Part shown: positions 1,479-24,730 of the stretch, piece by piece
How positions within the stretch are numbered: the first letter of the stretch is position 1
Layout of the letters: every line of letters begins with the position of its first letter
Source: a bacterium
Lineage (GTDB): Bacteria; UBA9089; CG2-30-40-21; SBAY01
NCBI GenBank assembly: GCA_040755795.1
Contig: JBFLXS010000006.1
Location: forward strand, 1 to 35,516
Reading direction: 5' to 3'
DNA length: 35,516 bases
The notes under the pieces: model-generated
The model's input: the letters and a program-made list of their open reading frames with translations, nothing else
Database searches by the model: none
Told to the model about the DNA's origin: nothing
Translations under genes and position numbers: made by a program

Positions 1479-1829
1479 TTGAAAACATTAGGTCAACATT
1501 TACTTGTTGAGTTGTTTGAGTGTAATAGGAAAATTCTCGATGATGAAAAGATGATGGAAGAGATTTTAATCCAATCAGCAATTATTGGGGGTGCTACTGT
1601 AATGAAACATTTATCCCATAAGTATTCTCCACAAGGGGTAAGTGCTATCGTAATAATTGCTGAATCACATCTATCAATTCATACCTGGCCAGAATATGGA
1701 TATGCGGGATGTGATATCTTTGCGTGTGCTAATAGCCTTAAGATGGAGAAAGCACTCGATTATATTGTAAGTCAAGTAGAACCAACAAATTTTACACTAC
1801 TTGAAATAAAAAGAGGAAATATTAAATAA
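1479..1829 (+). CDS. speH: S-adenosylmethionine decarboxylase proenzyme (prokaryotic class 1B)
   Basis: This 116-aa pyruvoyl enzyme makes decarboxylated SAM, the aminopropyl donor for polyamine synthesis. The self-cleavage motif AESHLSIHTWPE gives the Glu62-Ser63 cut, with Ser63 becoming the pyruvoyl group. His68 and Cys83 match the catalytic positions known from the Thermotoga maritima enzyme, and the length is normal for the family. The start is TTG at 1479 behind an AGAGGGAG ribosome binding site. No spermidine synthase (speE) lies nearby. The only aminopropyltransferase in the window is the BpsA-like protein at 19869-20963, so the two probably work together. A leader with an intrinsic terminator precedes it. 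Confidence 0.95.
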   Translation: MKTLGQHLLVELFECNRKILDDEKMMEEILIQSAIIGGATVMKHLSHKYSPQGVSAIVIIAESHLSIHTWPEYGYAGCDIFACANSLKMEKALDYIVSQVEPTNFTLLEIKRGNIK

Positions 1830-1913: not shown

Positions 1914-2285
1914 ATGATATATGGGATGGGAATAGATATTGTGGGAATAAAAAGAATAGAAGATGTAATTAACAGGAATAAAGAAAGATTTTTGAAGAAG
2001 ATATTTACAGATGGGGAGATTAATTATTGTAACTCTCAGAAATTGAAATATCACCATTATGCCGGGAGAATTGCTGTTAAAGAGGCGATGATTAAAGCCC
2101 TGGGAAGACGATATGGAATAGATTGGAGAGAGATGGAAGTTAAGAATGGTAAATTTGGTCAACCAAAATTAAATTTATATGGGAAAGCAATAGAAATAAT
2201 TAAGAAATTGAATATTGTTAGTATTGAGGTTTCTATCTCCCATTGTGATGAATATGCTATAGCCGCGGTTATCTTAGAAAAATAA
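1914..2285 (+). CDS. acpS: Holo-[acyl-carrier-protein] synthase
   Basis: This 123-aa phosphopantetheinyl transferase converts apo-ACP to holo-ACP. It shows the AcpS signature GIDIVGIKRIE near the N-terminus (Asp8) and the RIAVKEAMIKAL motif (Glu57), the Mg/CoA-binding acidic residues of the family. The C-terminal VSISHCDEYAIAAVI strand is also typical. The length is normal. Its position in front of a cluster with a dedicated ACP (18153-18464) suggests it services that carrier, though it could be the cell's general AcpS. Confidence 0.95.
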   Translation: MIYGMGIDIVGIKRIEDVINRNKERFLKKIFTDGEINYCNSQKLKYHHYAGRIAVKEAMIKALGRRYGIDWREMEVKNGKFGQPKLNLYGKAIEIIKKLNIVSIEVSISHCDEYAIAAVILEK

Positions 2286-4631: not shown

Positions 4632-6137
4632 ATGAATAAAGAAGATAAATGGATAGTGAGAGAAGATATTATTCTAAGAGATGAAAGTAAATATATAAAT
4701 TCTAACATATATATAGTAAAAGATAATATATACGGCAGGCCATTTTATGTAACAAGAGAAGGATTTGAAATACTTAAATATTTAGCATTTCCAAGGAAGA
4801 TAGATGAAATTAAAGAATTCTATAAAAATTTCCTCAAATCTTCATTCTTAAATAAAGAAGAATCTGAAAAGATATCTAAATTTATCAACAAATTTATTGA
4901 GAATAATATTATAGTCAAAACAAATGAAGGTAAAGCTCATAAAAAAATATTATCAAATCTTTCACTTCCTTTGGTTAAAGATGTAAATTATATTCCTATG
5001 AGCTTCCCCATGGAAGTAATGATTCTTTTAACTGAGAGATGTAATTTAAGTTGTAGACATTGCATAATTTCATCTTCTCCAACTAAATCGAGGAAAGATG
5101 AACTTTCTACAGAAGAATTAAAGAGAATATTATTAGAGTTAGATAAAGGAGGATTACTTAATCTCATACTTAGTGGTGGTGAACCTCTGATTAGAAATGA
5201 TATATGGGAGATATTACTTTTTGCCTCAAGGTTAAGATTTTCTTTAAGTCTACTAACGAATGGAATATTATTATCTCTCCCACAGATAGAAGTACTTTCA
5301 GAGATTGCAAAAAGAAAGGGGAGAGGATTTTGGGTAAACATTTCCTTAGACGGTTCAACACCAGAATCTCATGCACGGTTAAGGGGAAAAGAAAGAATTT
5401 TTAATCGTACACTACAAAATTTAAAATTGTTAGTGAAGAATAATATCCAATGTTCAACCGAGACAATACTGCATCAGAAAAATAAAGATGAAATTGAATC
5501 TATAATTAAAATATGTTTTGAGTTAGGAGTAAAGATAGTAACTTTGCATCCAGCATCCTTAAGTAGAAAGAGGGTTAAAGAAAAAGATTTATATATGACC
5601 TTAGATGAAATCATGGAAATTGGATATAAAATAGAAAAATTAAAAGAAAAATATTCTAATTATGGAAAAATAAATTTTGATCTATATCATTATTTTTTTA
5701 CACAACCATCAGTAAGGATGAAAAAAGAGCAAGAAGAACAGAAAGATAATTCAATTAAGAGAATTAAACTGCCTCAAAATTGTTGTTCGGCTGGAATGTA
5801 TTCAATGGTCATTTCTGCAAAAGGAAAGGTTTATCCCTGTGATGAAGTTTATGGATTGCAAATGTTTGAGATGGGAGATGTAAGAAAGAGTATTTTAATC
5901 GAGATATGGCATAATGAAAAATGGAATATATTTAGAGGAGGATGGAAAAGAGAGGATGTAAAGGTGTGTAATAAATGTATGTACAACGAAAGTTGTAGCA
6001 TTATTAAATGCAGGTGTTATCCTTATAGCATCTTCAGAGATTTTTATGCCCCTTTACCGGCGTGTGTCTATAATTATAAAACAATAGGATTAAATGAGGA
6101 AGATATCACTCAATATAAAACTTGTCTTAATTTTTAA
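4632..6137 (+). CDS. PqqD-domain radical SAM/SPASM peptide maturase 2
   Basis: This 501-aa protein is colinear with the product of 2330-3817. It has a PqqD-like recognition domain (about 8-100), a radical SAM Cys137-x3-Cys141-x2-Cys144 motif, SGGEP (181-185) and a SPASM region with Cys384, 385, 403, 446, 449, 455, 460, 462 and 478. At the two positions where the paralog has Cys381 and Cys387 this protein has Tyr and Ala, so cluster ligation or chemistry may differ. The two probably arose by duplication and may act in succession on the 3995-4081 peptide. It is separated from the precursor by about 550 bp and may have its own promoter. Confidence 0.9.
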   Translation: MNKEDKWIVREDIILRDESKYINSNIYIVKDNIYGRPFYVTREGFEILKYLAFPRKIDEIKEFYKNFLKSSFLNKEESEKISKFINKFIENNIIVKTNEGKAHKKILSNLSLPLVKDVNYIPMSFPMEVMILLTERCNLSCRHCIISSSPTKSRKDELSTEELKRILLELDKGGLLNLILSGGEPLIRNDIWEILLFASRLRFSLSLLTNGILLSLPQIEVLSEIAKRKGRGFWVNISLDGSTPESHARLRGKERIFNRTLQNLKLLVKNNIQCSTETILHQKNKDEIESIIKICFELGVKIVTLHPASLSRKRVKEKDLYMTLDEIMEIGYKIEKLKEKYSNYGKINFDLYHYFFTQPSVRMKKEQEEQKDNSIKRIKLPQNCCSAGMYSMVISAKGKVYPCDEVYGLQMFEMGDVRKSILIEIWHNEKWNIFRGGWKREDVKVCNKCMYNESCSIIKCRCYPYSIFRDFYAPLPACVYNYKTIGLNEEDITQYKTCLNF

Positions 6138-6854: not shown

Positions 6855-7769
6855 ATGCTCTTACAGGATTTATTAATAAAAATTCCTTTTCTCTTTACAT
6901 TTTTTTATTATTTTGTACCTTATAAACTAAAATTTCTTTTTTTTCATATTTATTCCATTATATTTTTCAAAAGACACCAAAACCAATATATGCCGAATAT
7001 ATTCTCTAATTTAAAAGAAGCATTAGGGAATGAAAAATCCGAGGCGGAAATTGAGTTGATAGCTAAAAGAAATTTGGGACTCTTAATGAAGAAAGAAGCG
7101 GAGTTCTGTTTAAATTTTTCCCGGAAGATTGGGCAGAAAGATAAACGGATAATCTTTGAGTTTGAAAATCTTAAACAAACAGTGAAAATAAATAAAGGAG
7201 TGATTATAGCTCCACTTCATCTAACTGAATTTTTTTGGGCATGGCCATATTGGATAGCAAGTCAAGGATACAAAGTTCAAGTAGTTACTAATGAACCATT
7301 CGCTAAAGAAAGACTGATGGTAATAAGAGAAGAATTAGATGATGAAAAGGAGAATAAAAGTGGGTGGTATAATATAGAGATAATACAGGTAACTCCTTTG
7401 ATACTTCAGTCTTGTCGCAATTTTTTAAAAGAAGGAGGAATTGTAATAATATACCCTGAATTTCAAGAGGGAAAGAAAAAACATATCATTGAATTCCTTG
7501 GGATTCCTATATATGTAGGATTAGGGATTATAGAGTTAAGTCTCAATATAGGAGCACCAATCCTATTATCTTGGGTAATTAAAAAGAATACTACTGTTAT
7601 AGCTAGGATAGATAAACCTACGGAGTTAATTCTAACCGGAGATAAAAAAGAGGATATTGAGGTTAATATAAAACAGGTTTTCAAAATAATAGAATCTCAT
7701 ATCCAAAAAGAACCTGAAGAATGGTATCTATGGAAAGAAATTCATAGATTAAGGGCGATTGAAAAATGA
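6855..7769 (+). CDS. LpxL/HtrB-like lysophospholipid acyltransferase-superfamily protein
   Basis: This 304-aa protein has an N-terminal hydrophobic anchor (about 5-38). Its overall pattern matches late lipid A acyltransferases: the strand-His region GVIIAPLHLTEFFW around His122, a second motif IIYPEFQEGKKKH (about 196-208), then FLGIPIYVG and GAPILLSWVI. The family usually transfers acyl chains from acyl-ACP to a membrane lipid using an H-x4-D/E dyad. Here the residue five after His122 is Phe127 and the only nearby acid is Glu125, so catalysis may be altered. It has a good RBS (AGGAGGGAGAGG). The neighbours suggest it could attach the cluster's acyl product to an amine or lipid acceptor, but the acceptor is unknown. 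Confidence 0.75.
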   Translation: MLLQDLLIKIPFLFTFFYYFVPYKLKFLFFHIYSIIFFKRHQNQYMPNIFSNLKEALGNEKSEAEIELIAKRNLGLLMKKEAEFCLNFSRKIGQKDKRIIFEFENLKQTVKINKGVIIAPLHLTEFFWAWPYWIASQGYKVQVVTNEPFAKERLMVIREELDDEKENKSGWYNIEIIQVTPLILQSCRNFLKEGGIVIIYPEFQEGKKKHIIEFLGIPIYVGLGIIELSLNIGAPILLSWVIKKNTTVIARIDKPTELILTGDKKEDIEVNIKQVFKIIESHIQKEPEEWYLWKEIHRLRAIEK

Positions 7770-11492: not shown

Positions 11493-12992
11493 TTGAAAGA
11501 CAATTATGATGTAATCGTTATTGGAGCAGGGATAGGTGGTTTAACCTGCGGAACATTTTTAGCTAAGGAAGGAATAAGTGTATTGGTGGCGGAAAAGAAT
11601 GATAAGGCAGGAGGATATTGTACCTCATTTAGCCGGGGAGATTATATCTTTGATAGCGGTCCTTCCTCTATTAGTGGCTTAAGCCAAGGAGGGACATTGA
11701 GAAACACATTATCTTTGCTTCAGTTAGAAGACGAAATAACATTTCTTCCCTTAGATTTTAAGGAAAAACTCATTTTCCCCAACTATACCATCGTTATTCC
11801 AACTAATTTTGAGGAATACCAACAAGAACTTATGAGAAGATTTCCTGATGAGAAGGAAGGGATAACTAAATATTTTAAACATATAGAGAATTTGTATTAT
11901 GAGTTTCAAAATATAATGGATGGGGATCTTCTAACCTTATCTAAACAACCTTCGTTGGTTTCATTCAAGAAATATCCAAATATGATTAGATTTCGAGATG
12001 TAACCTTTCACCAGATATTAGATAAATTTTTTACTGATTGTTCTATTAAGGGAATTTTAGCAGTTGGAGGTTGTGGAAGAATAGGACTTCCTCCTAGCAA
12101 AGCTTCATTTATAAGTGTGGCTATTGATAGCATTGAAACTTTAAAATATGGCTTAGTTCATTTTAAAGGAGGGAATCAATTCTTATCAGATGCTTTTGTA
12201 AAAGGGCTGGTGAAATATGGTGGGAATTTAATGTTAGGGCAAAAGGTAAAAAAAATATTGATAGAACAACATAAGGCTTGTGGAATTGTGTTAGAAGACG
12301 GAACACAAATAAGAGGTAAATATATTGTCTCTAATGGTGATGCTAAACAAACTTTTCTTAATCTAATTGGAGAGGAATATTTAAGTAAAGAATTTGTAAG
12401 AATGTTAAATAACGCAGAAGTATCACTATCTGCATTTATAGTTTATCTGGGGGTAAATATTGATTTAAAAAATAAAGGGATAAAAGAAAGTCTATTATGG
12501 TATATTCCATCTTACGATATAAAAGAAGAATATGAAAAGAGTTACGATATCCTGGGAGGAGATTTATATATTCTTATCCCCTCAAATATAGATTCGGGAT
12601 TAGCACCTTTGGGTAAAAGTTGTATTAAGATAGAACAATTAGTGCCGTATCATTGTGGTCATAATTGGGATGAATGTAAGGAAGAGATGGCTAATAGATT
12701 AATTAAAAGAGCAGAACAGATTATTCCAGACCTTTCTAACTATATTGAGATTAAAGAAATAGCTACTCCTTTGACCTTGGAGCGATATACTCTAAATAGT
12801 GAAGGGGCATGTTATGGTTGGGCTAAGACTATAGAGCAAGGAGAATTTTATTATTCTCCAAACCAAAAGACTCCTATTGAAAATCTTTACTTAGCAGGAC
12901 ACTGGACATTCCCGGGGCATGGTGTTCCCACAGTAGCTTGCTCAGGGATATTAGCAGGTAAGAGTATCTTGTCGGAGATAAATAAATCATGA
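11493..12992 (+). CDS. CrtI-like FAD-dependent oxidoreductase (phytoene desaturase/carotenoid isomerase family)
   Basis: This 499-aa protein begins with a dinucleotide-binding fold VIVIGAGIGGLTCG (8-20) and the acidic turn VLVAEKNDKAGGYCTS. It ends with the conserved NLYLAGHWTFPGHGVPTVACSG FAD-contact segment of the CrtI/CrtISO family. The start is TTG at 11493 behind a strong AGGAG site. Members desaturate or isomerise carotenoids, and related proteins occur in other lipid clusters, including candidate ladderane clusters of anammox bacteria. No phytoene synthase or prenyltransferase is present, so a polyene or acyl chain made by the adjacent KS enzymes is a more likely substrate than a carotenoid. 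Its stop overlaps the start of the KS gene (ATGA). Confidence 0.88.
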   Translation: MKDNYDVIVIGAGIGGLTCGTFLAKEGISVLVAEKNDKAGGYCTSFSRGDYIFDSGPSSISGLSQGGTLRNTLSLLQLEDEITFLPLDFKEKLIFPNYTIVIPTNFEEYQQELMRRFPDEKEGITKYFKHIENLYYEFQNIMDGDLLTLSKQPSLVSFKKYPNMIRFRDVTFHQILDKFFTDCSIKGILAVGGCGRIGLPPSKASFISVAIDSIETLKYGLVHFKGGNQFLSDAFVKGLVKYGGNLMLGQKVKKILIEQHKACGIVLEDGTQIRGKYIVSNGDAKQTFLNLIGEEYLSKEFVRMLNNAEVSLSAFIVYLGVNIDLKNKGIKESLLWYIPSYDIKEEYEKSYDILGGDLYILIPSNIDSGLAPLGKSCIKIEQLVPYHCGHNWDECKEEMANRLIKRAEQIIPDLSNYIEIKEIATPLTLERYTLNSEGACYGWAKTIEQGEFYYSPNQKTPIENLYLAGHWTFPGHGVPTVACSGILAGKSILSEINKS

Positions 12993-14227
12993 AAAGGGTT
13001 GTTGTCGCAGGAATAGGTGTATTATCACCGATTGGAAATGATAAAGAGGAATATTGGGAAGGTTTAAGAAGTGGCAAGTCAGGCATTGAAACAATTACCC
13101 TATTTGATACACGAAATTATAAATTTAAGAGAGGCGGAGAAATAAAGGATTTTAATCCTACAAAATACTTTACCAGGAAAGGACTAAGACGGTTGGATAG
13201 AGCTTCTCAAATGGTATTAATTGCTACCCAGGAGGCAATAGATGATGCCCAGATAAATTTTAACCAGATGGAGAAAAACAATTGTGGAGTAGTATTGGGA
13301 ACTACTCTGGGAGGAATGGTTTCTGGGGAAAAATATTATCGCCATTTGAAAAAGAGGCAAGATAGAGTTTATGCTTCTTTATTATTAGATTTCCCAATGT
13401 ATTCAGCAACAGACCATATTTCTATCAGATATAAGTGTAGCGGTTCAATCTTGACTATCTCTACCGCGTGCTCTGCAAGTAATCAGGCTATTGGTTGTGC
13501 CTTTGATTTAATTCGAAAAGGGGAAGATACAATAATTATCACCGGCGGTTTTGACCCATTGTCAGAATTGACCTTTGCAGGTTTTGGAATATTAAGGATT
13601 ATGAGCCTTGATAAGATTAGACCCTTTGATAAGAATAGAACAGGATTAATTCTGGGTGAAGGGGTGGGTATTCTTATTTTGGAAGAATTAGAGCATGCTT
13701 TAAATAGGAAAGCAAAAATATATGCTGAAATAATCGGATACGGAGCAACTACTGATGCATACCATATGACCGCTCCTCATCCACAAGGAGAAGGTGCAGC
13801 TAATGCTATGCAAAAGGCATTAGATGATGCAAATATTAAACCAGATGATGTAGATTATATTAATGCCCATGGGACAGGAACGCTATTTAATGATTTATCA
13901 GAAACAATGGCTATAAAAAAGATAATGGGAGAAGGGGCTTATAAAATACCCATTAGTTCTACAAAATCTATGATTGGACATACTTTAGGTGCGGCAGGGG
14001 CATTGGAGGCAATTGCTACTATTTTAGCCATGCAAAAAGGGATAATTCCTCCCACAATTAATTATGAAACCCCTGACCCTAAATGTGACCTTAATTATGT
14101 GCCCAATTATTCTATTCAAAAAAATATAAGGATTGCTTTATCAAATTCCTTTGGTTTTGGAGGAAATAATGCTACTATAGTGTTTAAAAAATGGGAGGGA
14201 GAAACAGATGACTCTACCTCAAAGTAA
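12989..14227 (+). CDS. Beta-ketoacyl-ACP synthase II-type ketosynthase (KS-A)
   Basis: This 412-aa FabF-family protein has a complete catalytic triad: Cys161 in STACSASNQ, His294 in NAHGTGTLFND and His331 in SMIGHTLGAAGALE, with Lys326. It should decarboxylate malonyl-ACP and extend an acyl chain. It is one of four KAS-fold proteins in the operon and is probably paired with the CLF-like protein at 16908-18128 or the one at 22186-23415. It overlaps the upstream oxidoreductase by 4 bp and the downstream PLP gene by 20 bp, indicating tight co-translation. The sequence is close to FabF, but the duplicated CLF arrangement points to a type II polyketide or specialised fatty acid system rather than housekeeping synthesis. 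Confidence 0.93.
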   Translation: MKRVVVAGIGVLSPIGNDKEEYWEGLRSGKSGIETITLFDTRNYKFKRGGEIKDFNPTKYFTRKGLRRLDRASQMVLIATQEAIDDAQINFNQMEKNNCGVVLGTTLGGMVSGEKYYRHLKKRQDRVYASLLLDFPMYSATDHISIRYKCSGSILTISTACSASNQAIGCAFDLIRKGEDTIIITGGFDPLSELTFAGFGILRIMSLDKIRPFDKNRTGLILGEGVGILILEELEHALNRKAKIYAEIIGYGATTDAYHMTAPHPQGEGAANAMQKALDDANIKPDDVDYINAHGTGTLFNDLSETMAIKKIMGEGAYKIPISSTKSMIGHTLGAAGALEAIATILAMQKGIIPPTINYETPDPKCDLNYVPNYSIQKNIRIALSNSFGFGGNNATIVFKKWEGETDDSTSK

Positions 14228-15437
14228 AATGGAAATGATAAGTAAGATTGCGCAAGAGTATTCCCTTGTCTTTATATGTTTTGAGGATATATTACAAAAT
14301 AATATTGAAAGATTAAAAATATCTGCAAATAATTATCTTAAATTATCTCTCTTTTATTCATATAAAACAAATTGGTTACCTGGGATATGCAAGGTTATAC
14401 ATAAAAATGGTGTTGGTGCAGAAGTAGTCTCTGGATTTGAGTTGTGGTTAGCACGCTTGCTCAAAGTTCCTAATGAGCAAATTATCTTTAATGGCCCCTG
14501 CAAAACTTCAGAGGAATTGAAGGAAGCCAGTAATCCAGGTATTGGATGTTTAAATATAGATTCTTTATCTGAATTTAATCGATTATTAAATACATGGAAT
14601 GGTAATAGTCCAGGAAATTTAGGGATTAGAATAACCCCTGAAAAAATTAGAGATATGCAGGTGTTTGGAATCCTTAGTTCTGACTATAATACTATTGATA
14701 AAATTGTGGAGACAGCTATTAAAAATAACTTTAATCTTAAACTCTTGCATACCCATATAGCTCACTATCTTAACTATAAGGAGATGTGTATTTATGCTTG
14801 TGAAGAATTAATTAAAGTTTTAGCTTATCTCTACAAAAAATATAATATTTTTATTAAAAATATAGATTTAGGAGGAGGACTGAATCCTATTTTATTAGGA
14901 GAAGATAAAGGTTGTTTTTCAGACTGTGAAAATTTCTTTGCCACAGTAAGCAAGATCTTTGAAAAAGAATTGTTGAAACACAGTCTGCCATATCTTATAC
15001 CAAATCTTATTTTAGAACCAGGTCGATTTATAGTTAACAATGCAGTTATGTTATTAACCACTATCCATGCTTTAAAAGAAGTAGACAACCAACATATAGC
15101 TGTATTAGATGCAGGAACAAATATATTAGGAACGCCACATGAAGATATAATTCCTATTTCCACGACTTCTTCCAATAAGACTATTTTGTATAGATTGGTT
15201 GGACCATTATGCTTCCCAGGAGATACAGTAGCTATTTCTGTAAAACTACCACCAGTAAATATAGGTGATAGTCTTTTAATCTTAAATTGTGGTGCTTATA
15301 GCTTATCTAACTCCTGGCAGTTTATTAAAACAAGACCACCAGTAATATTGGTGACAAACAATGATGAGATTAAAATTATTAGAGAAAAAGAGAGGTATGA
15401 AGATATGATAGCCCTGGACAGGTATGATAATCTTTAA
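14208..15437 (+). CDS. Fold-type III PLP-dependent decarboxylase (ornithine/diaminopimelate decarboxylase family)
   Basis: This 409-aa protein has PLP-binding Lys53 in FYSYKTN, the substrate-strand GAEVVSGFEL (70-79), the phosphate-binding IDLGGGLN (Gly222-224), EPGR (270-273), catalytic Cys335 with Asp339 in GPLCFPGD, and Tyr364 in CGAYSLSN. These are the full set of active-site elements of diaminopimelate/ornithine/carboxynorspermidine decarboxylases. The substrate cannot be assigned. It could be a free amino acid feeding polyamine synthesis, or a carrier-bound aminoacyl group as in BtrK of butirosin biosynthesis. Its start lies inside the end of the KS gene with a GGGAGG ribosome binding site at about 14192-14197, so it is coupled to chain synthesis. 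Confidence 0.88.
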   Translation: MTLPQSKMEMISKIAQEYSLVFICFEDILQNNIERLKISANNYLKLSLFYSYKTNWLPGICKVIHKNGVGAEVVSGFELWLARLLKVPNEQIIFNGPCKTSEELKEASNPGIGCLNIDSLSEFNRLLNTWNGNSPGNLGIRITPEKIRDMQVFGILSSDYNTIDKIVETAIKNNFNLKLLHTHIAHYLNYKEMCIYACEELIKVLAYLYKKYNIFIKNIDLGGGLNPILLGEDKGCFSDCENFFATVSKIFEKELLKHSLPYLIPNLILEPGRFIVNNAVMLLTTIHALKEVDNQHIAVLDAGTNILGTPHEDIIPISTTSSNKTILYRLVGPLCFPGDTVAISVKLPPVNIGDSLLILNCGAYSLSNSWQFIKTRPPVILVTNNDEIKIIREKERYEDMIALDRYDNL

Positions 15438-15452
15438 GTGAGAAGAAATACT

Positions 15453-16415
15453 ATGGGAGATTTTACAAAACCAGAATTTTGGAATGAGAGTGAAGAATAT
15501 ATATTTATAAGTATTTTCCCTGGAACGAGGGATTTTGTGAACTTATTTAACATAGGCTCATTTATAACTTCCGCTGATAAGATTTTACATGTGGGTTGTG
15601 GACCAGGTGATTGTGTCATAGAATTAGGACAACACATAAAAGAGGGTATGGTCTATGGTATTGATTTCTCAGAACACTCAATTAATATTGCTCTAGAAAA
15701 GTTAAAATCCCCCACTTTCATTCCTCAAGTAATGGTATGGGGGAGAATAATGGGATTGTGGCATGAAGGGATAATTAAAGATGAAGATTTATATAAATTC
15801 ACATTAGAGATGTGTAGAGAAAGCAAAAAAGATATTCTATCTGAGATAAAAAATGTATATCATCAATATATAGAAATAATAAAACATTATACCTTATTAT
15901 CACCATATTCTACCCTTACATCAGGATTAAAAAAATTAGGGTTGATTGACATTTCTACCCCTCTTTGTTACTATAAATTAATTGAAGGGGTCAAAAGATT
16001 TAATGACCCAATATTTGAGAAAATTGTAGAAACGGATATTCAGAAGTTACAACAAGTAGTAAAATTTGATAAAATGGATGCGTTCTATCTTTTATATCCT
16101 GATAATTATTTTGACAAGGTTTTCGCTCGAGAGATAGAACCGCTTCTTCGTAAAAATGGCTCAAAATGGTTAGATGAGATGATAAGAGTATGTAAACATG
16201 ACGGCGTGATTTTATATGGAGGTTTCAGACTCCCGGGAGAATATCTAAAATCAGATGAGTTAGAAAGTGTTATTTCAGAAATAGAAAAAAGAGAAAAAAT
16301 TACTTTGATAGAAATGGGGAAAAGGAAGTTGGTCTCGTGGTGGGACCCATTATTTAATCTGTCAGACCTTAATGAGAATGTATTTACTCCATATGTGATA
16401 ATAAAAAAAGATTGA
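15453..16415 (+). CDS. Class I SAM-dependent methyltransferase with large internal insertion
   Basis: About 320 aa. SAM-binding motif I is ILHVGCGPGDC (44-54), followed by the acidic strand VYGIDFSE. The expected motif II/III sequence (DAFYLLYPDNYFDKVFARE, about 209-227) does not follow until about 130 residues later. The intervening part (about 86-200) is mostly helical and not seen in standard small-molecule methyltransferases. It could form a lid or bind a carrier protein. I prefer the ATG at 15453 (GAGAAG upstream) to a GTG at 15438 that touches the previous stop. It lies between the PLP decarboxylase and a small unknown gene in the KS operon. The methyl acceptor is unknown. Confidence 0.8.
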   Translation: MGDFTKPEFWNESEEYIFISIFPGTRDFVNLFNIGSFITSADKILHVGCGPGDCVIELGQHIKEGMVYGIDFSEHSINIALEKLKSPTFIPQVMVWGRIMGLWHEGIIKDEDLYKFTLEMCRESKKDILSEIKNVYHQYIEIIKHYTLLSPYSTLTSGLKKLGLIDISTPLCYYKLIEGVKRFNDPIFEKIVETDIQKLQQVVKFDKMDAFYLLYPDNYFDKVFAREIEPLLRKNGSKWLDEMIRVCKHDGVILYGGFRLPGEYLKSDELESVISEIEKREKITLIEMGKRKLVSWWDPLFNLSDLNENVFTPYVIIKKD

Positions 16416-16428
16416 CAAGGAGAAAAAA

Positions 16429-16911
16429 ATGGAAATAGAGAGTATATTTGTGACAAAGTTACCAGATTGGAAGGTTCTGGAAAGGAAAAATAAGAGACAG
16501 ATAAGTTTTTCAAAACCATTTGAACGGGAAGAGATTGTATTCGAAGCTCCAGCAACAATCCCTAGTATGGGAAAGGCTGGAGTAATTAAGATGAGAATAA
16601 ATTATCCTCTTCCAAATGAAGAATTGATTATAAGAAGGTCGATAGAAATAGCGAAGGAAGAGATGTGTAAAGGAATACCTCCCTACTTAAAATATAATGA
16701 AGATGAAATTTCAATTGAAACGATAACTATTGAAAATAAAAGAGTAGAAAGTGTGACCATCCCGCTCTATGTATTTCCAGGTATCACACCAAAAGTTAGG
16801 TCTATTATTATATCTATGGGCAAAATAACATATGTTACCTATGGACTCTATGAGAATGCTGAGATTTTAGCTAATATATTGATAGAAAATATAACTGAGG
16901 AAGAAAGATGA
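16429..16911 (+). CDS. Conserved-looking hypothetical protein, 160 aa
   Basis: I do not recognise a family. The protein is soluble and mixed alpha/beta with no signal peptide or membrane segment. It has an Ile/Val-rich beta pattern in the second half (VESVTIPLYVFPG, VRSIIISMGKITYVTYG) and a C-terminal helix. A good RBS (CAAGGAGAAA) precedes the ATG. It lies 13 bp after the methyltransferase gene and overlaps the CLF gene by 4 bp (ATGA), so it is almost certainly part of the biosynthetic operon. Cyclase, hotdog-type or accessory roles are possible but nothing in the sequence proves any. Confidence 0.7.
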   Translation: MEIESIFVTKLPDWKVLERKNKRQISFSKPFEREEIVFEAPATIPSMGKAGVIKMRINYPLPNEELIIRRSIEIAKEEMCKGIPPYLKYNEDEISIETITIENKRVESVTIPLYVFPGITPKVRSIIISMGKITYVTYGLYENAEILANILIENITEEER

Positions 16912-18128
16912 ACGCTCGTGTTGTAATCACAGGTATAGGCATAATTTCTCCCTATGGGGTAGGGGAGGAAGTCTTTTATAAGGCATTAAAAGAAGGAACC
17001 TCCTGTATAAAGAAGATATCTTTATTTGATGTATCTTCTTTTAAATCTCAAAAAGGTGGTCTTATTACTAATTTTTTACCAGAAGAATTTGATAATGATG
17101 AAAGGTTTTGTCGCTTACCAAGGATTGCTCAATATTCAATTGTTGCCGCAGATTTGGTTATGAAAGATATACAAGATGCTTTTGATTCTACTAAAATAGG
17201 AATATTTTTAGGGACGGACCATGGAGCAATAGAATTTACTGAAAGATTTTATTCAAATTTAATTGAAAAAGGTCCTGAAAGGGTTAATCCGTTATTATTT
17301 CAAGAAACGGTATTTAATGCCCCTGCAAGTCATATTAGTTTAAAATATAAAATTAAGGGACCAACTATCGTCATTACCTCTGGTTATGTTTCGGGATTAT
17401 TATCTGTTATGCAAGGAGTTGATTATCTTCAGAGAGGGAAATTAGATTTAGCTATAGTTGGGGGAATAGAGGAATTAACAAAGACAGTTTATGAAGTGGA
17501 ATATCATTTAGGAATTCTATCCCCTCAAGATGAAGGAGAGGAAGAGTGTAGACCGTTTGATGCAAAGAGGAACGGGTTTATCCCTTCCGAGGGGGCAGGA
17601 ATTCTTCTGATAGAGAGATTAGACCAGGCACGGAAACGAAAAGCTCATATCTACGGAGAAATAATAGGTTGGGGAAATTCATCTGATTCGTATAAAATTG
17701 CTGATTACTCTCCTGAGGGTGAGGGAATTAAAAATGCTATGTTAAAGGCATTGAGAGAGGCAAACTTAAATCCCGAAAAGATAGATTATATTGCTGCGGC
17801 TGCCAATGGAAGCAGAGTATTAGATAGAGCTGAAACAAAGGCAATAAAGGATGTATTTGGCAATTATGCTTATAAAATTGCTCTCAGTAGTATAAAATCT
17901 ATAGTTGGTGAATCAAGTGCACCAAGTGGTGTTTTTAATTTAATCGCAGTCCTATTTAGCATGGAGAATAATCTTATTCCTCCAACAATAAATTATGAAA
18001 ATTATGATCCTGAATGTGATCTTTATTATGTTCCGAACATACCGAAAAGAATGGAAGTAAAAACAGGACTGGCTAATGCCATCTCCTTTGGTGGTAATAG
18101 TTGTAGTATTATAGTCCAAAAATTATAA
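16908..18128 (+). CDS. Chain-length-factor-like KAS protein (CLF-A), active-site Cys replaced
   Basis: This 406-aa FabF-fold protein has all catalytic residues replaced. Aligned to the KS at 12989, the nucleophile Cys position is Tyr160 (VITSGYVSG), the first His is Ala (AAAANGSRVLD) and the second His is Glu (SIVGESSAPSG). This matches a KS-beta/CLF partner that shapes chain length in a heterodimer with a true KS. The usual Gln of actinobacterial CLFs is not present, so it represents a different lineage. The N-terminal RVVITGIGIISPYG and C-terminal NAISFGGNS segments are standard for the fold. Overlap with the preceding 160-aa gene and a 24-bp gap to the ACP gene place it in the operon. Confidence 0.9.
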   Translation: MNARVVITGIGIISPYGVGEEVFYKALKEGTSCIKKISLFDVSSFKSQKGGLITNFLPEEFDNDERFCRLPRIAQYSIVAADLVMKDIQDAFDSTKIGIFLGTDHGAIEFTERFYSNLIEKGPERVNPLLFQETVFNAPASHISLKYKIKGPTIVITSGYVSGLLSVMQGVDYLQRGKLDLAIVGGIEELTKTVYEVEYHLGILSPQDEGEEECRPFDAKRNGFIPSEGAGILLIERLDQARKRKAHIYGEIIGWGNSSDSYKIADYSPEGEGIKNAMLKALREANLNPEKIDYIAAAANGSRVLDRAETKAIKDVFGNYAYKIALSSIKSIVGESSAPSGVFNLIAVLFSMENNLIPPTINYENYDPECDLYYVPNIPKRMEVKTGLANAISFGGNSCSIIVQKL

Positions 18129-18152: not shown

Positions 18153-18464
18153 ATGGAAGAAGTGATTTCAATTGATGAGATTAAAAAAAGACTAAAACAA
18201 CTCATTGTGGAACGGTTAAGGTTAAAAATTAAGCTTGAGGAAATAGAGGATGAAGCACCGCTTTTTGTAGAAGGATTAGGATTAGACTCAATTGAGGCGT
18301 TAGAGATTATAGTAGGGATAGAAGAGGAGTTTAATATAACTGTTCCTGGTGGAGAGGATGAGGAAATGCAACAAAGATTTTATTCTATTAATACTTTAGC
18401 CCAATATGTCAAGGAACTCTTAGAAAAGAAGGATTTAGAAGTACCAACTCCACAATACCTCTAA
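18153..18464 (+). CDS. Acyl carrier protein
   Basis: This 103-aa carrier has the phosphopantetheine site GLGLDSIEALEI with Ser46, a normal helix pattern and a somewhat extended C-terminus (KKDLEVPTPQYL) compared with the roughly 78-aa housekeeping AcpP. A strong RBS (AAAGGAG) precedes it. It is located between a CLF gene and fabZ, so it is the dedicated carrier for this pathway and the probable target of the AcpS at 1914-2285. Confidence 0.93.
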   Translation: MEEVISIDEIKKRLKQLIVERLRLKIKLEEIEDEAPLFVEGLGLDSIEALEIIVGIEEEFNITVPGGEDEEMQQRFYSINTLAQYVKELLEKKDLEVPTPQYL

Positions 18465-18473
18465 AAAGGAATA

Positions 18474-18962
18474 ATGAAAATGGAAGAAAAGATAATGGAG
18501 ATATATGACATAAAAAACCGAATACCTCATAGATTCCCAATGTTATTAGTAGATAGAATAATTGAAATAGAAAGAGGTAAACGGGCAGTAGGGGTTAAAT
18601 GTGTAACCATAAACGAAGGTTTCTTTGAAGGCCATTTCCCTGAGGAACCTATTATGCCAGGTGTTCTGATCATCGAATCTATGTCTCAAGTAGCCGGTAT
18701 CCTTCTCTCAGAAGAAAATGAGAGAGGGAGAAAAAATGAGGGAAAGGAAAATGAGAATGAGGAGAGAAGAATGTATTTGGGGATGGTAGATCATATTAAA
18801 TTTCGTAAACCTGTAATTCCTGGCGATAGAATGCTCATTGAGGTTAATGTCATAAAAACCTTTGTGAATATGGCGAAAGTTAAGGGAGAGGTAAAGGTAG
18901 ATAATGAAATTGTAGCCGAGGGAGAATTAGATTTTGTTGTAGTTAAGAGAAAGGGTAGATAA
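18474..18962 (+). CDS. fabZ: 3-hydroxyacyl-ACP dehydratase (FabZ-like)
   Basis: This 162-aa hotdog-fold enzyme has the FabZ signature IPHRFPMLLVDRI, catalytic His54 in GHFPEEPIMPGV and Glu68 in IIESMSQ. It removes water from 3-hydroxyacyl-ACP to give a trans-2-enoyl chain. A highly charged stretch of about 18 residues rich in Glu, Asn, Arg and Lys (82-99) is inserted between the central helix and the next strand and is not part of ordinary FabZ. No recognisable enoyl reductase is in the window, so its products may stay unsaturated, as in highly reducing type II polyketide systems making polyenes. Confidence 0.93.
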   Translation: MKMEEKIMEIYDIKNRIPHRFPMLLVDRIIEIERGKRAVGVKCVTINEGFFEGHFPEEPIMPGVLIIESMSQVAGILLSEENERGRKNEGKENENEERRMYLGMVDHIKFRKPVIPGDRMLIEVNVIKTFVNMAKVKGEVKVDNEIVAEGELDFVVVKRKGR

Positions 18963-19047: not shown

Positions 19048-19797
19048 ATGGCTAATTTATTAGCGGGAAAGGTAGCGATAATTACAGGAGGCACGAAAGG
19101 AATTGGAAAGGCAATTACTCTAAAATTTGCTCAGGAAGGAGCAAAAGTGGTGATTAATTATGCCCATGATGACCAGGAGGCGAAAAAAACAGAAGAGGAA
19201 ATAAGAACCATAGGACAAGAAGTATTACTGGTGAAAGGTTCAGTAAGTGATTGGTTAGCAGTTGAAAGAATGATAAAAGAGACGATTAATAAATGGAAAC
19301 AAATTGATATCCTGGTAAATAATGCAGGAGGTACAAGAGATGGTTTTTTGATGACCATGTCAGATAAAAATTGGGATGAAGTTATAGAATTAAATCTGAA
19401 AGGAACTTATTATTGTTGTAAGGCTGTCTTAAAAACTATGATTAGCCAAAAAAGTGGGAAAATTATTAATATGTCCTCTTTAACAGGAATTACAGGACAG
19501 ATAGGGCAAACCAATTATGCGGCCGCAAAAGGCGGGATAATAAGTTTTACTAAAGCGTTAGCAAGAGAAGTAGGAAGGTTTGGAATATATGCAAATACAG
19601 TTGTCCCTGGGTTTATTGATACAGAGATGATACGAAAACTTCATCCAGAAATTATAGAGATGCATATAGAACTTACCCCATTAGGAAGACTTGGAAAACC
19701 AGAAGAAGTAGCAGATGTAGCTTTATTCCTTGCTTCAGATATGTCAAGTTATATTACAGGTCAAATAATTCATGTCAATGGTGGTGAATATATGTAA
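19048..19797 (+). CDS. fabG: 3-oxoacyl-ACP reductase (FabG-like SDR)
   Basis: This 249-aa classical short-chain dehydrogenase has a TGGTKGIG cofactor loop (13-20), NNAG (91-94), catalytic Ser about 143-144, Tyr157 and Lys161 (NYAAAKGG), and the C-terminal ITGQIIHVNGGEYM typical of FabG. It reduces the keto group made by the KS enzymes, using NADPH in the usual case. A strong RBS (AAAGGAG) lies before the ATG. It is separated from fabZ by 85 bp that hold no gene. Confidence 0.94.
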   Translation: MANLLAGKVAIITGGTKGIGKAITLKFAQEGAKVVINYAHDDQEAKKTEEEIRTIGQEVLLVKGSVSDWLAVERMIKETINKWKQIDILVNNAGGTRDGFLMTMSDKNWDEVIELNLKGTYYCCKAVLKTMISQKSGKIINMSSLTGITGQIGQTNYAAAKGGIISFTKALAREVGRFGIYANTVVPGFIDTEMIRKLHPEIIEMHIELTPLGRLGKPEEVADVALFLASDMSSYITGQIIHVNGGEYM

Positions 19798-19868: not shown

Positions 19869-20963
19869 ATGAATATAACCAGAAGGAAAATTTTTAAAAA
19901 ATTATTAGAAAAAGACCAAGTATTTTTAAAGTTATTAGAAAATCAAGAATCACCTCTTGAGTTCATGAAAGAATTACATTCTTTATACAAAGAAAATTTA
20001 ATAACATTATCAGCCAATAAATACTTTACTATTACCGAGAAAGGAAAAAGATATGCTAATACCCTTAGATTTTTACCAGGAAAAGTAAGATGCGAATTAT
20101 GTCAAGGTAAAGGGATTGATACTACTGAATACCAGTGTATTCTAACAAAATTTAAAGAAATAGTTAAAGATAGACCACTCCCGGTAAACGAATATGACCA
20201 GGGACCAGTTACTCCTGAAGATAGTCTAAGAAGGGTTCTATTTATGTTAGAAAGAGGAGATCTTCAAGATAAAAGGATATTAATCTTAGGAGATGATGAT
20301 TTAATAAGCATTGTTATTGCAATGATGAAGGTAACTGAGAGGATAACAGTGGTGGAAATAGATCAAAGATTAATTGAGTTCATTGAAGCAAGTGGTTTAA
20401 ATATTGAAATCACTCATTACAATGCTGAAGAAACTTTAACATTACCTATTAAATACAGCACTTTTATTACTGATCCGGTAGAAACTATCGAGGGATGGAA
20501 ATTATTTTTATCAAGAGGGATTTCCTGTCTCGATAAATGTGGAACTGTTTATTTCGCCTTGACATCACTGAGATCTTCAAGGGAAAAATGGTATGAGTTC
20601 CAAAGACTAATAAGTGAAATGGGATTAATAATAACAGATATGTTAAGAGATTTCAGCACTTATCCTATGGAAACAAATATTTTAAAGAGTAAATTAGAGA
20701 ATGGTGAACATTTTATGCCTAAAAAAATGACAAGTTTTTTAGAAGAGTTTCTCTTCTCCCAGGAAGATAATTATGAAGATAGTAAGTGGTATACTTCTAC
20801 TTTTGTAAGGGCTGAGGCAATAAATGAACCACGACCTCTTATAATCGGTAACTACAAACTTGGTAATATAATGTATAAGGATAATGAAGGTGTAGAAATA
20901 GAAAGCTGTTTTAAAAAGCTTTTCTTTGAAATTTATAAAGACTTACAAAGTGAAAAGCAGTAA
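19869..20963 (+). CDS. bpsA: BpsA-type branched-chain polyamine synthase (aminopropyltransferase)
   Basis: This 364-aa protein has a winged-helix-like N-terminus (about 1-70), a Cys75-x2-Cys78 pair, the EYDQGPVTPED segment (108-118), a Rossmann core with GDDD (141-144) and EIDQR (163-167), and DPVET (202-206). GDDD and DPxET are hallmark motifs of N4-bis(aminopropyl)spermidine synthase, best known from Thermococcus kodakarensis, which adds aminopropyl groups from decarboxylated SAM to internal amines. The DPPET of that enzyme reads DPVET here. It lies 9 bp before a KS gene in the operon, and SpeH at 1479-1829 supplies the donor. The acceptor could be free polyamine or an amine on the cluster's product. 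Confidence 0.85.
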   Translation: MNITRRKIFKKLLEKDQVFLKLLENQESPLEFMKELHSLYKENLITLSANKYFTITEKGKRYANTLRFLPGKVRCELCQGKGIDTTEYQCILTKFKEIVKDRPLPVNEYDQGPVTPEDSLRRVLFMLERGDLQDKRILILGDDDLISIVIAMMKVTERITVVEIDQRLIEFIEASGLNIEITHYNAEETLTLPIKYSTFITDPVETIEGWKLFLSRGISCLDKCGTVYFALTSLRSSREKWYEFQRLISEMGLIITDMLRDFSTYPMETNILKSKLENGEHFMPKKMTSFLEEFLFSQEDNYEDSKWYTSTFVRAEAINEPRPLIIGNYKLGNIMYKDNEGVEIESCFKKLFFEIYKDLQSEKQ

Positions 20964-20972
20964 AAAAAACAG

Positions 20973-22199
20973 ATGGATGAGAAAGTAGTAGTAACAGGAA
21001 TAGGGGTGATTACCTCTGTTGGTATGGGGAAAGAAGAATTCTGGAATTCCTTAATTTGTGGAAAAGAAGGAATTAAGGAAATAACTTCTTTTGATACGAG
21101 AAAGTACAAATGTAGGAAAGGAGGGGAGATTGAAAGATTTACCTTTCCATCTTATTTAAAAAAGGCAGATAGATCTTCTCAGTTATTAGCTACTTGTGTT
21201 GAGGAAGCTATTAGTGATGCTAAATTGGATTTAGACAAAGAAGATAAGGAAATGACAGGAGTGGTAATTGGAACCGCTCTGGGAGGAATTTTATCTGGTG
21301 AAAAGATTCATTTTGCCTTAAAAAATAATCAACAGAGGAAGATTAAATCATTATTTTTAGAATATCCTTTACATAGAAGTGCAGAGTATATTCGAGATAG
21401 ATTTAATCTGAAAGGATCTATTATTACTCTGAGTAATGCTTGTACTTCAAGCAGTAACGCTATAGGGTATGCATACAATCTTATTCGGTATAAAAGAAGT
21501 GAGATAATGATAGTGGGAGGGGTAGATACCTTATCCCAATTTGTTTTTAGCGGATTTAATTCTCTAAGGATACTTACAGAAGATAAATGTCGACCTTTTG
21601 ATAAAAAAAGGGATGGCTTAGTTTTAGGGGAAGGAGCAGGAGTGATAATCTTAGAAAGGCTACATCATGCTTTATATAGAAACGCACATATTTATGCTGA
21701 AATAGTTGGTTACAGTAACAGTTGTGATGCATGTCATATAAGTGCTCCTGATAAGGAAAGTGATGGGGCTTATCAAGCTATAAAAATTGCTTTAAAAGAA
21801 GCAAAATTAAAAATAAAAGATATAGATTATATTCACCTTCATGGAAATGGAACAATTTATAATGATAGAATGGAATCTACAGCAATTAAAAGAGCTTTTG
21901 GAGTTTATAAGGAAAAGATTCCAGTTTCTGCAATTAAAGCTATGACAGGATATACATTAGGGGCAAGTGGTGTAATAGATGGAATAACCTGTATCTTGAT
22001 TATGAATAATAATTTTATCCCCCCTATTATAAATTATGCAACCCCTGATTCTGAATGTAACCTTAATTTTGTAACTAATAAAGGGAAAAAAAGAAAGGTT
22101 AAGATTTCTTTATCCTTGAGTTCTGGATTTGGGGGAGCTAATACAGTAATTCTCTTTAAAAAATATTCGGGAAGAAAACACAATAATGGAAAACAATAG
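20973..22199 (+). CDS. Beta-ketoacyl-ACP synthase-type ketosynthase (KS-B) with His-to-Tyr substitution
   Basis: This 408-aa FabF-family protein keeps the nucleophile Cys157 (SNACTSSSNAIG) and the first His290 (HLHGNGT). The second catalytic His, in the KSxIGH motif of the family, is Tyr327 (IKAMTGYTLGASG), with Lys322 kept. Both His residues take part in malonyl decarboxylation and thioester stabilisation, so the enzyme may accept acyl chains but show altered or no malonyl decarboxylation. It overlaps the downstream CLF gene by 14 bp and is preceded by bpsA, so it forms the second KS/CLF pair. Specialised roles such as acyl transfer or condensation with a non-standard nucleophile are possible. 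Confidence 0.9.
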   Translation: MDEKVVVTGIGVITSVGMGKEEFWNSLICGKEGIKEITSFDTRKYKCRKGGEIERFTFPSYLKKADRSSQLLATCVEEAISDAKLDLDKEDKEMTGVVIGTALGGILSGEKIHFALKNNQQRKIKSLFLEYPLHRSAEYIRDRFNLKGSIITLSNACTSSSNAIGYAYNLIRYKRSEIMIVGGVDTLSQFVFSGFNSLRILTEDKCRPFDKKRDGLVLGEGAGVIILERLHHALYRNAHIYAEIVGYSNSCDACHISAPDKESDGAYQAIKIALKEAKLKIKDIDYIHLHGNGTIYNDRMESTAIKRAFGVYKEKIPVSAIKAMTGYTLGASGVIDGITCILIMNNNFIPPIINYATPDSECNLNFVTNKGKKRKVKISLSLSSGFGGANTVILFKKYSGRKHNNGKQ

Positions 22200-23415
22200 A
22201 GTAGTTATCTCTGGGATAGGGGTTATAAGTTCTATAGGGATAGGGAAGGAGGCTTTCTGGAATGCTTTAGAGAAAGGAGAGTCAGGGATAAGAGAAATTT
22301 CCAGATTTGATACTTCTTCTTGTAAGGCTAAATTAGGAGGTGAAATTAAAAATTTTGACTTTTACTCGCTAATGCAAATATCGGAAAGTAATGATGATAG
22401 TAGATACAGATTGATGGATTCCCTTTCTAAATTGGGAGTAGCAGGGACAAAATTAGCTCTGGAAGATACAGATTTGGAGATTAAAAAAAATGAGACTTCC
22501 AGAAAAGGTGTTATAGTTGGTACAGTTTTTGGATGTTTAGAAAGTAACGAAATGTTTAATGAAGGAATACTTAGAAAAGGTCCTCTATATGTGAATCCAA
22601 TAATATTTAAGAATACAATATCTAATGGTGTAGGGGCACAAGTGGCGATTGAGTATAGTATTAAGGGAGTAAATCTTACTTTTACATCAGGAATAACCTC
22701 AGGGATGCATGCCATTATTTATGCCTTTGATCTTATCAAACATGGGGAAGCAGATATTATCATTACCATAGGGATAGATAAACTTTGTCAAGTGTTATTT
22801 CAGGGTTTTGATATGTTAAGACTTTTATCCCCTCAAGATAACAAATTAGAAGGGTGTCGACCATTTGACCGCACTCGTAATGGTTTAGTAATAGGAGAGG
22901 GAGCAGGGGTTCTAATTTTGGAGAAATTAAGCTATGCATTAGAGAGAAAGTCGAAGATATATGCAGAAATAGTTGGTTTTGGAATAGCCAGTGGGGAAGA
23001 AAATATCGCACGAGCAATGAGACTATCATTAGAAAATGCAAAGATTTTACCTCAAAAAATTGATTATATCTGTACCAGCGCAAATTCGACTAAAGAATTA
23101 GATAGGAGAGAAACAAAATCAATTAAAGATGTATTTGGGGAATGTGCTTATAAAATCCCAATAAGTAGTATTAAATCTATCGTAGGAGAAACTTTTGGAG
23201 CAGGAGGAATATTTAATGTCATAAGTGGTGCTATGGCTATTTCAGAGGGGATAATACCTCCTACTATTAATTATGAAAATCAAGACCCAGAATGTAACCT
23301 CAATTATGTACCTAACTATCCTCAAAGATCTAAAGTTGAATTTGTTTTAGCCAATACAGCCGGGAGAAAAAAAGGAGAAGCTATTTCAATAGCTATGAAG
23401 AGATATACGCCATAA
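22186..23415 (+). CDS. Chain-length-factor-like KAS protein (CLF-B)
   Basis: This 409-aa KAS-fold protein lacks the catalytic residues. The Cys position is Ile170 (TFTSGITSG), the first His region reads CTSANSTKELD and the second reads SIVGETFGAGG. It resembles the CLF at 16908-18128 in the last two motifs, so the two CLFs likely share an ancestor by duplication of a KS/CLF unit. Its start lies inside the upstream KS gene (14-bp overlap), strong evidence for a KS-B/CLF-B heterodimer. Confidence 0.9.
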   Translation: MENNRVVISGIGVISSIGIGKEAFWNALEKGESGIREISRFDTSSCKAKLGGEIKNFDFYSLMQISESNDDSRYRLMDSLSKLGVAGTKLALEDTDLEIKKNETSRKGVIVGTVFGCLESNEMFNEGILRKGPLYVNPIIFKNTISNGVGAQVAIEYSIKGVNLTFTSGITSGMHAIIYAFDLIKHGEADIIITIGIDKLCQVLFQGFDMLRLLSPQDNKLEGCRPFDRTRNGLVIGEGAGVLILEKLSYALERKSKIYAEIVGFGIASGEENIARAMRLSLENAKILPQKIDYICTSANSTKELDRRETKSIKDVFGECAYKIPISSIKSIVGETFGAGGIFNVISGAMAISEGIIPPTINYENQDPECNLNYVPNYPQRSKVEFVLANTAGRKKGEAISIAMKRYTP

Positions 23416-23434: not shown

Positions 23435-24730
23435 ATGAAAGAGTATCCAACAATGGAATACCTATCATCCCAAAATATTAAAAATGTTCAAGAGGAATTA
23501 TTACAGGAGACAATTAATTACACATACAAATATTCCCCATATTATGAAAGATTATTTAATTCTTATAATATATTACCATCTAAGATTAAGAGATTAGAAG
23601 ATTTAGTTCAAATTCCTCCTACGACAAAATATGATTTACAAAAGAACAATGAGGATTTTTTATGTGTTGATAAAGAAAAGGTAGTAGAGATTGTTTGCAG
23701 TAGTGGGACTACAGGAGAACCAATATTTATAGCCTTAACTAAAAATGACATATATAGATTGGCACGGAACGAAGAATTGAGTTTTCTTTGTACAAATACT
23801 ACTTCCGAGGATCTTTTTCAATTGATGGTAACAAGTGATAATATGTTTATTGCCGGAATGGCATATTATCTTGGAATTACTAAAATAGGGGCTGGAGTTA
23901 TCAGGATGGGACCAGGCAATACAAAAAGACAGATCCGGATATTGGAAGCCCTAAAACCAACGGGTATAGTAAGCGTTCCTTCTTATTTAATTAAAATGCA
24001 TGAAGAAATAATAAATCTTTCCATAGATATCTCTAAATTGTCTCTTAATAAAGCAGTATTGATTGGTGAGAGCATTTTAAATGAGTCATTAAAACTAAAT
24101 CCCTTGGGGCAGAAAATCCGTAATCTGTGGAATATTGAATTGTTTTCTACCTACGGAACCACAGAAATAGCAACTTCTTTTTGTGAATGTATTGTTCACC
24201 AGGGCCTACATTCACATCCTGAATTACTTTATTTTGAAATCCTTGATGAGAACAATAATGTATTAAATGATGGTGAGATGGGAGAATTAACAGTAACTAC
24301 TTTTCAAACCGAAGGAATGCCATTAATCAGGTATAAAACAGGTGATATTACTTTTAAGATTTCCTCCCCTTGTAAATGTGGGCGAACTACTGAAAAAATT
24401 GGTCCAATACTTAGTCGAAAGCATCATTTAATAAAATTTAAAGGAACTACTGTTTATCAGACACAAATTGAAATGGCGTTATTAAAATTTGATGAGATAA
24501 AAAACTATGTCATCGAGGTATCTACAAAGGATAATCTTTCTGATTGGATAGTAGTTAAAGTAGGAGTGAGTAATTTCTCTCCTCTATTAGAAGAAAGAAT
24601 AAAAGATGAGATAAAGGCTTATGCCCGTGTAACTCCAGAAATCCAGATGTTTACCCCTAGTGAAGTAGAAAAATTTTTATTCACTGAGGGCTCTAGAAAA
24701 CCTAAAAAGTTTGTTGATTTAAGGAAATGA
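23435..24730 (+). CDS. PaaK-like adenylate-forming ligase
   Basis: This 431-aa protein has the phenylacetate-CoA-ligase-type pattern: P-loop SSGTTGEP (89-96), YGTTE, a RYKTGD motif and a CKCGRT segment, followed by GPILSRKHHLIKFKGT where PaaK enzymes hinge to the C-terminal lid. Such enzymes activate a carboxylate as acyl-AMP and pass it to CoA, a carrier or an amine. The gene is 19 bp after CLF-B and directly followed by the third radical SAM gene. It could load a starter acid or couple the finished chain to a polyamine. An amidation role is inference, since the acceptor cannot be read from sequence. Confidence 0.87.
   Translation: MKEYPTMEYLSSQNIKNVQEELLQETINYTYKYSPYYERLFNSYNILPSKIKRLEDLVQIPPTTKYDLQKNNEDFLCVDKEKVVEIVCSSGTTGEPIFIALTKNDIYRLARNEELSFLCTNTTSEDLFQLMVTSDNMFIAGMAYYLGITKIGAGVIRMGPGNTKRQIRILEALKPTGIVSVPSYLIKMHEEIINLSIDISKLSLNKAVLIGESILNESLKLNPLGQKIRNLWNIELFSTYGTTEIATSFCECIVHQGLHSHPELLYFEILDENNNVLNDGEMGELTVTTFQTEGMPLIRYKTGDITFKISSPCKCGRTTEKIGPILSRKHHLIKFKGTTVYQTQIEMALLKFDEIKNYVIEVSTKDNLSDWIVVKVGVSNFSPLLEERIKDEIKAYARVTPEIQMFTPSEVEKFLFTEGSRKPKKFVDLRK

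Follow-up and report, generated by a model that had tools for sequence, protein, structure and literature searches.

A BpsA-type aminopropyltransferase gene within a ketosynthase/chain-length-factor cluster that carries its own S-adenosylmethionine decarboxylase gene

Descriptions of BpsA cover only the synthesis of free branched polyamines in thermophiles; according to a 2025 paper its gene is confined to thermophiles, with none found among mesophiles (PMC12175538). In the enzyme of Thermococcus kodakarensis (Tk), Asp159 and Asp160 of the GDDD motif hold the aminopropyl group of decarboxylated S-adenosylmethionine (dcSAM) (PMC12979288). Microcin C, which receives its aminopropyl group through MccD/MccE and, in a Bacillus version, with the use of dcSAM, provides a precedent for an aminopropylated natural product (PMC7857480, PMC10491745). 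On the polyene side, the FlxY protein from Chitinophaga acts as a 4-coumarate-CoA ligase (PMC3992019), and in aryl polyenes ApeC has the role of chain-length factor and ApeO that of ketosynthase (PMC8253772). In the literature that we searched, neither aryl polyene nor type II polyketide clusters were linked to aminopropyltransferases, and there was no aminopropylated natural product made via a BpsA-type enzyme or on a polyketide. An article by Kulikovsky et al. from 2025 reportedly deals, by its title, with dcSAM-dependent aminopropylation of a natural product.

The window analysed here, meaning the whole stretch of 35,516 nucleotides of contig JBFLXS010000006.1 from an uncultured bacterium of the UBA9089 lineage, holds a BpsA gene in a setting of another kind (Table 1). 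All annotated genes between positions 1479 and 34929 run in one direction, and the BpsA gene is co-directional with about 25 genes of a polyene cluster of the ketosynthase/chain-length-factor (KS/CLF) type, which contains two KS-CLF pairs. It has an ATG start with the ribosome-binding site AAAAAGGAGAGGG, begins 71 bp after the end of the FabG gene and ends 9 bp before the start of the KS3 gene, with no terminator found between BpsA and KS3. The close packing between fabG and a KS gene reported in the first-pass annotation is thus confirmed.

Table 1. Features of the window and the evidence for each; residue numbers are those of the window BpsA unless marked Tk.
Feature	Position	Strand	Basis
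SpeD, S-adenosylmethionine decarboxylase, likely dcSAM supply; first cluster gene	1479..1829	+	PF02675 125.6 bits; TIGR03330 133.8 bits, cut-off 75.7
Holo-ACP synthase type phosphopantetheinyl transferase	1914..2285	+	PF01648; TIGR00516 above cut-off
Radical SAM/SPASM protein 1	2330..3817	+	Profile match
Radical SAM/SPASM protein 2	4632..6137	+	49% identity to protein 1
LpxL-type acyltransferase, candidate for joining acyl chain to amine/hydroxyl	6855..7769	+	PF03279 24.9 bits, cut-off 22.3
FAD oxidoreductase, carotenoid isomerase/desaturase family (CrtISO-like), possible polyene isomerase	11493..12992	+	TIGR02730 197.6 bits, below equivalog cut-off; conserved in sister (L153)
KS1, Cys-His-His intact	12989..14227	+	Alignment; 83% identity in sister
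PLP decarboxylase, DAPDC/FslC/BtrK clade, recognition loop CFPGD vs CESSD	14208..15437	+	80% identity in sister
Methyltransferase-like protein	15438..16415	+	Pfam; 76% identity in sister
Orphan protein, 160 aa, between methyltransferase and KS2	16429-16911	+	Without family
KS2, chain-length-factor type; Cys, His1 and His2 all lost	16908..18128	+	KS alignment
Acyl carrier protein (ACP)	18153..18464	+	PF00550
FabZ-type dehydratase	18474..18962	+	TIGR01750 above cut-off
FabG-type ketoreductase	19048..19797	+	TIGR01830 above cut-off; FlxB model 260 bits, cut-off 340
BpsA-family (PF01861) aminopropyltransferase, 364 aa	19869..20963	+	PF01861 219 bits; AF2 model pLDDT 88.4, VIA Z 28.3 to 5xnc
GDDD motif, residues 141-144 (Tk G157-D160), dcSAM aminopropyl binding	20289..20300	+	G141, D143, D144 invariant, 89/89
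DPVET motif, residues 202-206 (D202 = Tk D225)	20472..20486	+	V204 in 85/89 BpsA, the usual form
Arg235 replacing acceptor-activating Glu (Tk E259)	20571..20573	+	89 aligned: E 86, D 2, R only here; sister (L025) E
Insertion of ~14 residues before WYTS motif (roughly residues 283-303)	20715..20777	+	Alignment; common to sister only
C-terminal extension after acidic motif, residues 347-364	20907..20960	+	Alignment; residues 339-363 one helix (predicted)
KS3, active-site Cys and His1 kept, His2 to Tyr (sister too)	20973..22199	+	KS alignment
KS4, chain-length-factor type (Cys/His/His lost), overlaps KS3	22186..23415	+	KS alignment
FlxY-like (4-coumarate-CoA ligase-like) acyl-activating enzyme	23435..24730	+	NF053551 501.4 bits, curated cut-off 520

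We regard the assignment of the protein as an aminopropyltransferase of the BpsA family as firm. Its Pfam BpsA_C score stands against a cut-off of 27 and covers profile positions 2-241 of 243, and by sequence it matches the solved BpsA chains of Thermococcus, Pyrococcus and Thermus with E-values from 6e-47 (Thermococcus, the best) to 1e-32. The AF2 model (pTM 0.85) superposes on Thermococcus BpsA (5xnc) over 247 residues with an rmsd of 2.8 and 35% identity. The top six VIA structural matches of the model are all BpsA-family members (Z 25.4-28.3), followed by the next family at 19.4; MccD, which is a different methyltransferase-fold enzyme and acts on microcin C in place of a polyketide scaffold, is represented by 5fcd only among generic matches (Z 14.3). 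The GDDD and DPVET motifs had been taken as marks of the family from the letters alone, and rightly so. Aminopropyl transfer is well supported as the reaction; the acceptor is one that we infer. No other PF01861 protein occurs in the genome, and a plasmid search for BpsA gave no match.

A scan of genome contigs recovered 348 relatives, of which the best 80 were kept. Among these 80, a protein from a sister genus (G003) is 70% identical to the window BpsA and all others are at most 42% identical. Whether this copy forms a separate clade linked to KS genes had been put forward as a check. The window and sister proteins do make up a clade of their own (100/100), which has a long stem and is nested within a supported set of bacterial sequences (100/96) together with those of Thermodesulfobacteria, Kryptonia and Atribacterota, in a tree with long branches where the exact neighbour of the pair is unsure. 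Gene neighbourhoods were compared at 87 other BpsA loci (51 with at least 3 kb on both sides). A same-strand speD lies within 3 kb of BpsA in 62 of the 87, and a co-directional KS near BpsA in none. The sole nearby KS, 47 bp away at locus L109, is encoded on the other strand, apparently as part of a housekeeping fab operon, and BpsA beside KS was therefore rejected as a widespread arrangement; BpsA in a KS cluster is known from two genomes only.

The second of these genomes is that of the sister genus, in which the embedding of BpsA among KS genes noted in the first-pass annotation is conserved. A 3-kb sister contig (SBAY01000185.1) carries BpsA, KS3 and KS4 in the same order as the window, and another carries the oxidase, KS1, decarboxylase and methyltransferase. 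Identity between the two genera is 69-83% over seven cluster proteins, and dN/dS is 0.18-0.30 in five of the six genes compared and highest, at 0.32, in BpsA, which points to purifying selection throughout. Values of dS for the cluster (0.53-0.66), set against 0.92 and 1.29 for two other gene pairs, hint at recent transfer of the cluster, although two pairs are too few as comparators. No SpeD was found in the fragmented sister assembly. In another family of the same order, genome G005 has a related KS/CLF cluster without BpsA (L162, G005:C215), so BpsA was apparently added as an extra module to a type of cluster that already existed.

In order to compare active sites, Tk BpsA residues named in PMC12979288 were transferred to the window protein via sequence alignments of 89 BpsA proteins. 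Equivalents of Tk D159, D160, D225, Y290 and Y316 are all kept. Within the acceptor-activating set (Asp225, Glu259, Tyr290 and Tyr316), the window protein thus has D202, Y265 and Y308, with R235 at the position of Glu259; as the sister retains glutamate, this replacement is not a trait of the cluster as a whole. Two earlier expectations found no support here. A supposed DPPET-to-DPVET change in the substrate-binding motif proved to be the usual form (V in 85 of the 89 aligned proteins and P in 4, with DPV in Thermus BpsA as well) and is rejected as a change of specificity. A rebuilt acceptor pocket did not emerge from the comparison with Tk BpsA either, given the retained residues and the loss of Glu259 in the window copy only. 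Judged from the alignment, the pocket appears mostly conventional and the changes appear to gather in the C-terminal region, which in Tk/Tt swap experiments (Tt, Thermus thermophilus) sets substrate and product preference (PMC12979288). This region contains the acidic residues D338, E340, E343 and E345; the acidic carrier motif, D-[DE]-E in the family, reads D-N-E in the window protein and D-N-N in the sister, and both proteins have the insertion and the C-terminal extension. Set against Tk (5xnc) and Tt (6j27) BpsA, the window enzyme agrees in its family, its fold (Z 28, 30-35% identity), GDDD, DP-E and both tyrosines. It is unlike the known enzymes in its KS/CLF cluster, where theirs have a speD neighbour alone, in its separate clade, 14-aa insertion and helical C-terminal extension, and in the Arg at Glu259.

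The surrounding cluster is most like those for flexirubins and aryl polyenes (flx, ape), with which it shares KS and CLF, a ketoreductase (KR), a dehydratase (DH), an ACP, the FlxY-like ligase, an FlxB-like reductase, an acyltransferase and outer-membrane/export genes. Unlike them, it lacks FlxA (the tyrosine ammonia-lyase) and DarA/DarB within the window, and its ligase and reductase score below the curated cut-offs. It has in addition SpeD, BpsA, the PLP decarboxylase and three radical SAM proteins, the third of which lies downstream of the FlxY-like ligase and is followed by an Omp85 protein, a porin-like protein and ABC exporters. No aromatic-starter enzyme (ammonia-lyase or chorismate lyase) was found among the 30 window proteins scanned. 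KS/CLF pairs with a KR and a DH, and with no enoyl reductase found in the window, make a conjugated polyene a fitting product. The second catalytic His of KS3 is Tyr in both genera (L025 1199-2425 in the sister), and from its active-site residues KS3 may perform acyl transfer or priming instead of ordinary elongation.

The first-pass annotation had found no spermidine synthase gene, which holds for the window and fails for the genome. A SpeE gene (PF01564, 164 bits) lies on contig C39 (14255-14791) between two SpeD genes, in a speD-speE-speD operon (L026 8567-10596); a second PF01564 protein is encoded on contig C75, and an agmatinase-like gene is present elsewhere. The idea of a genome without spermidine synthase is accordingly rejected, and the host is probably able to make spermidine. 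The SpeD gene at the head of the cluster had been overlooked, and with the two that flank SpeE it is the third SpeD. Its product is 60% identical to C39 SpeD and only 27-39% identical to nearly all SpeDs adjoining other BpsAs, so the cluster seems to have brought together a BpsA that was acquired and a SpeD that arose by duplication of a native one.

A carrier-bound or product amine had been proposed as the acceptor in place of spermidine. The idea is plausible in view of the PLP decarboxylase, whose recognition residue is like that of BtrK and FslC, and is weakened by the largely standard pocket of BpsA. The decarboxylase shares its alanine-racemase fold with BtrK (a glutamyl-ACP decarboxylase) and FslC/FigC (N-citrylornithine decarboxylase), although, unlike these, it scores best overall to diaminopimelate (DAP) decarboxylase (198 against an equivalog cut-off of 298). 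In all three cases a non-acidic residue follows the conserved Cys, namely Phe in the cluster enzyme of both genera, Thr in BtrK and Met in FslC; DAP decarboxylases have Glu there. Free DAP or ornithine is less likely as the substrate, as F replaces E/D at this position; Phe would favour a conjugated or carrier-bound amino acid, the decarboxylation of which would provide an amine for BpsA inside the pathway. Spermidine from the C39 operon could serve as an alternative acceptor.

The presence of BpsA and SpeD inside a polyene-like cluster suggests a product or building block with a polyamine-like group. We therefore favour, at slightly better than even chances, the reading that a working BpsA-type aminopropyltransferase was recruited, together with its own SpeD, into a flexirubin/aryl-polyene-like type II polyketide cluster to act on an amine of the product or of a building block. 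The cluster SpeD, from its family and position, would decarboxylate SAM to dcSAM. BpsA would then take the 3-aminopropyl group from dcSAM by a ping-pong mechanism, with GDDD holding the donor and acidic C-terminal residues carrying the group; this mechanism is known for Tk BpsA and presumably holds for the window protein, in which the motif is conserved. The group may be passed to a pathway amine, whether that of the product, of an intermediate released by the PLP decarboxylase, or of a polyamine head later acylated with the polyene. This route would yield a polyene or acyl chain that bears an aminopropyl or polyamine head and would probably be exported to the cell envelope. If so, BpsA aminopropyl chemistry would gain a role in natural products and a new class of polyamine-headed polyenes would be predicted. 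A more tentative proposal, to which we give less than even weight, is that a ping-pong BpsA, fed by a cluster-dedicated SpeD, aminopropylates a type II polyketide at a carrier-bound or product-bound amine, as part of secondary metabolism in a host that is apparently mesophilic. A candidate gene for a small peptide, located between two of the radical SAM genes, may mean that such a product is a peptide-polyketide hybrid.

The most serious challenge to this reading is that the enzyme makes ordinary free branched polyamines from the spermidine of the C39 operon, having entered the cluster by chance and retaining a general role, for example in the envelope or with nucleic acids. With a near-ordinary pocket, in which the catalytic and most acceptor residues are conserved, spermidine could still be the substrate; the host, with speD, speE and an agmatinase-like gene elsewhere in its genome, probably makes it; and the five family-conserved positions that the window BpsA has lost do not exceed the 6-12 lost by some other members. 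We nonetheless consider this role unlikely, though by no means negligible, as BpsA sits in the KS operon in both genera and not by the spermidine operon, and a genome of the same genus (G001) has SpeD and no BpsA, which argues against a housekeeping role of BpsA in the genus. Nor does the host look thermophilic. Its 16S rRNA GC content of 50%, the same as that of G001 and below the 51.5-61% measured for other BpsA carriers, is an indirect sign that suggests a mesophile. Some of those carriers are also low in 16S GC, which may mean that the restriction of BpsA to thermophiles is looser than PMC12175538 states.

The weakened acidic carrier motif speaks against the favoured reading and, with the change of Glu259 to Arg, raises the question of whether the window BpsA is decaying or inactive. 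An Arg235 that is unique among 89 proteins and the highest dN/dS of six cluster genes would fit decay. This is very improbable, however, with the frame intact in both genera, a good ribosome site in the window, dN/dS well below 1 and all other named catalytic residues kept. Another chemistry would be transfer of the whole 3-amino-3-carboxypropyl group from SAM, followed by decarboxylation by the DAPDC-clade enzyme, as proposed for MccD/MccE. The cluster PLP decarboxylase does belong to the same clade as MccE (PMC7857480), yet the GDDD that holds the dcSAM amine in BpsA is intact and the cluster contains a SpeD, and we consider such a route highly improbable.

Several smaller observations concern other parts of the window and the loci compared with it. 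The first two radical SAM/SPASM genes flank an ORF of 28 residues (MIIEEMEVEGIRNEMTNCGCGGSKVVCK) at 3995-4081 (+), whose ribosome site, GGAGGTGAT, is perfect; it gave no match in a Pfam search and may encode a RiPP precursor whose core is rich in Cys. An Rfam search of the window gave no match, and small direct and inverted repeats in its intergenic regions offered no lead. The orphan protein has one weak match in 386 genomes, and its single-sequence fold is not confident (pLDDT 32). The Pfam match of the methyltransferase-like protein is split into two segments, residues 44-94 and 201-259, about 100 residues apart, consistent with a fold with an insertion. The KS/CLF cluster of G005 includes an ACP, FabG, a FabD-type acyltransferase, a methyltransferase, a GcvT-like protein, an FeeM-like N-acyl amino acid synthase and LolA. 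At five of the other BpsA loci (L092, L096, L108, L110 and L109), a gene on the opposite strand lies 27-112 bp from BpsA, being acpS at four loci and the fabF-like KS at one.
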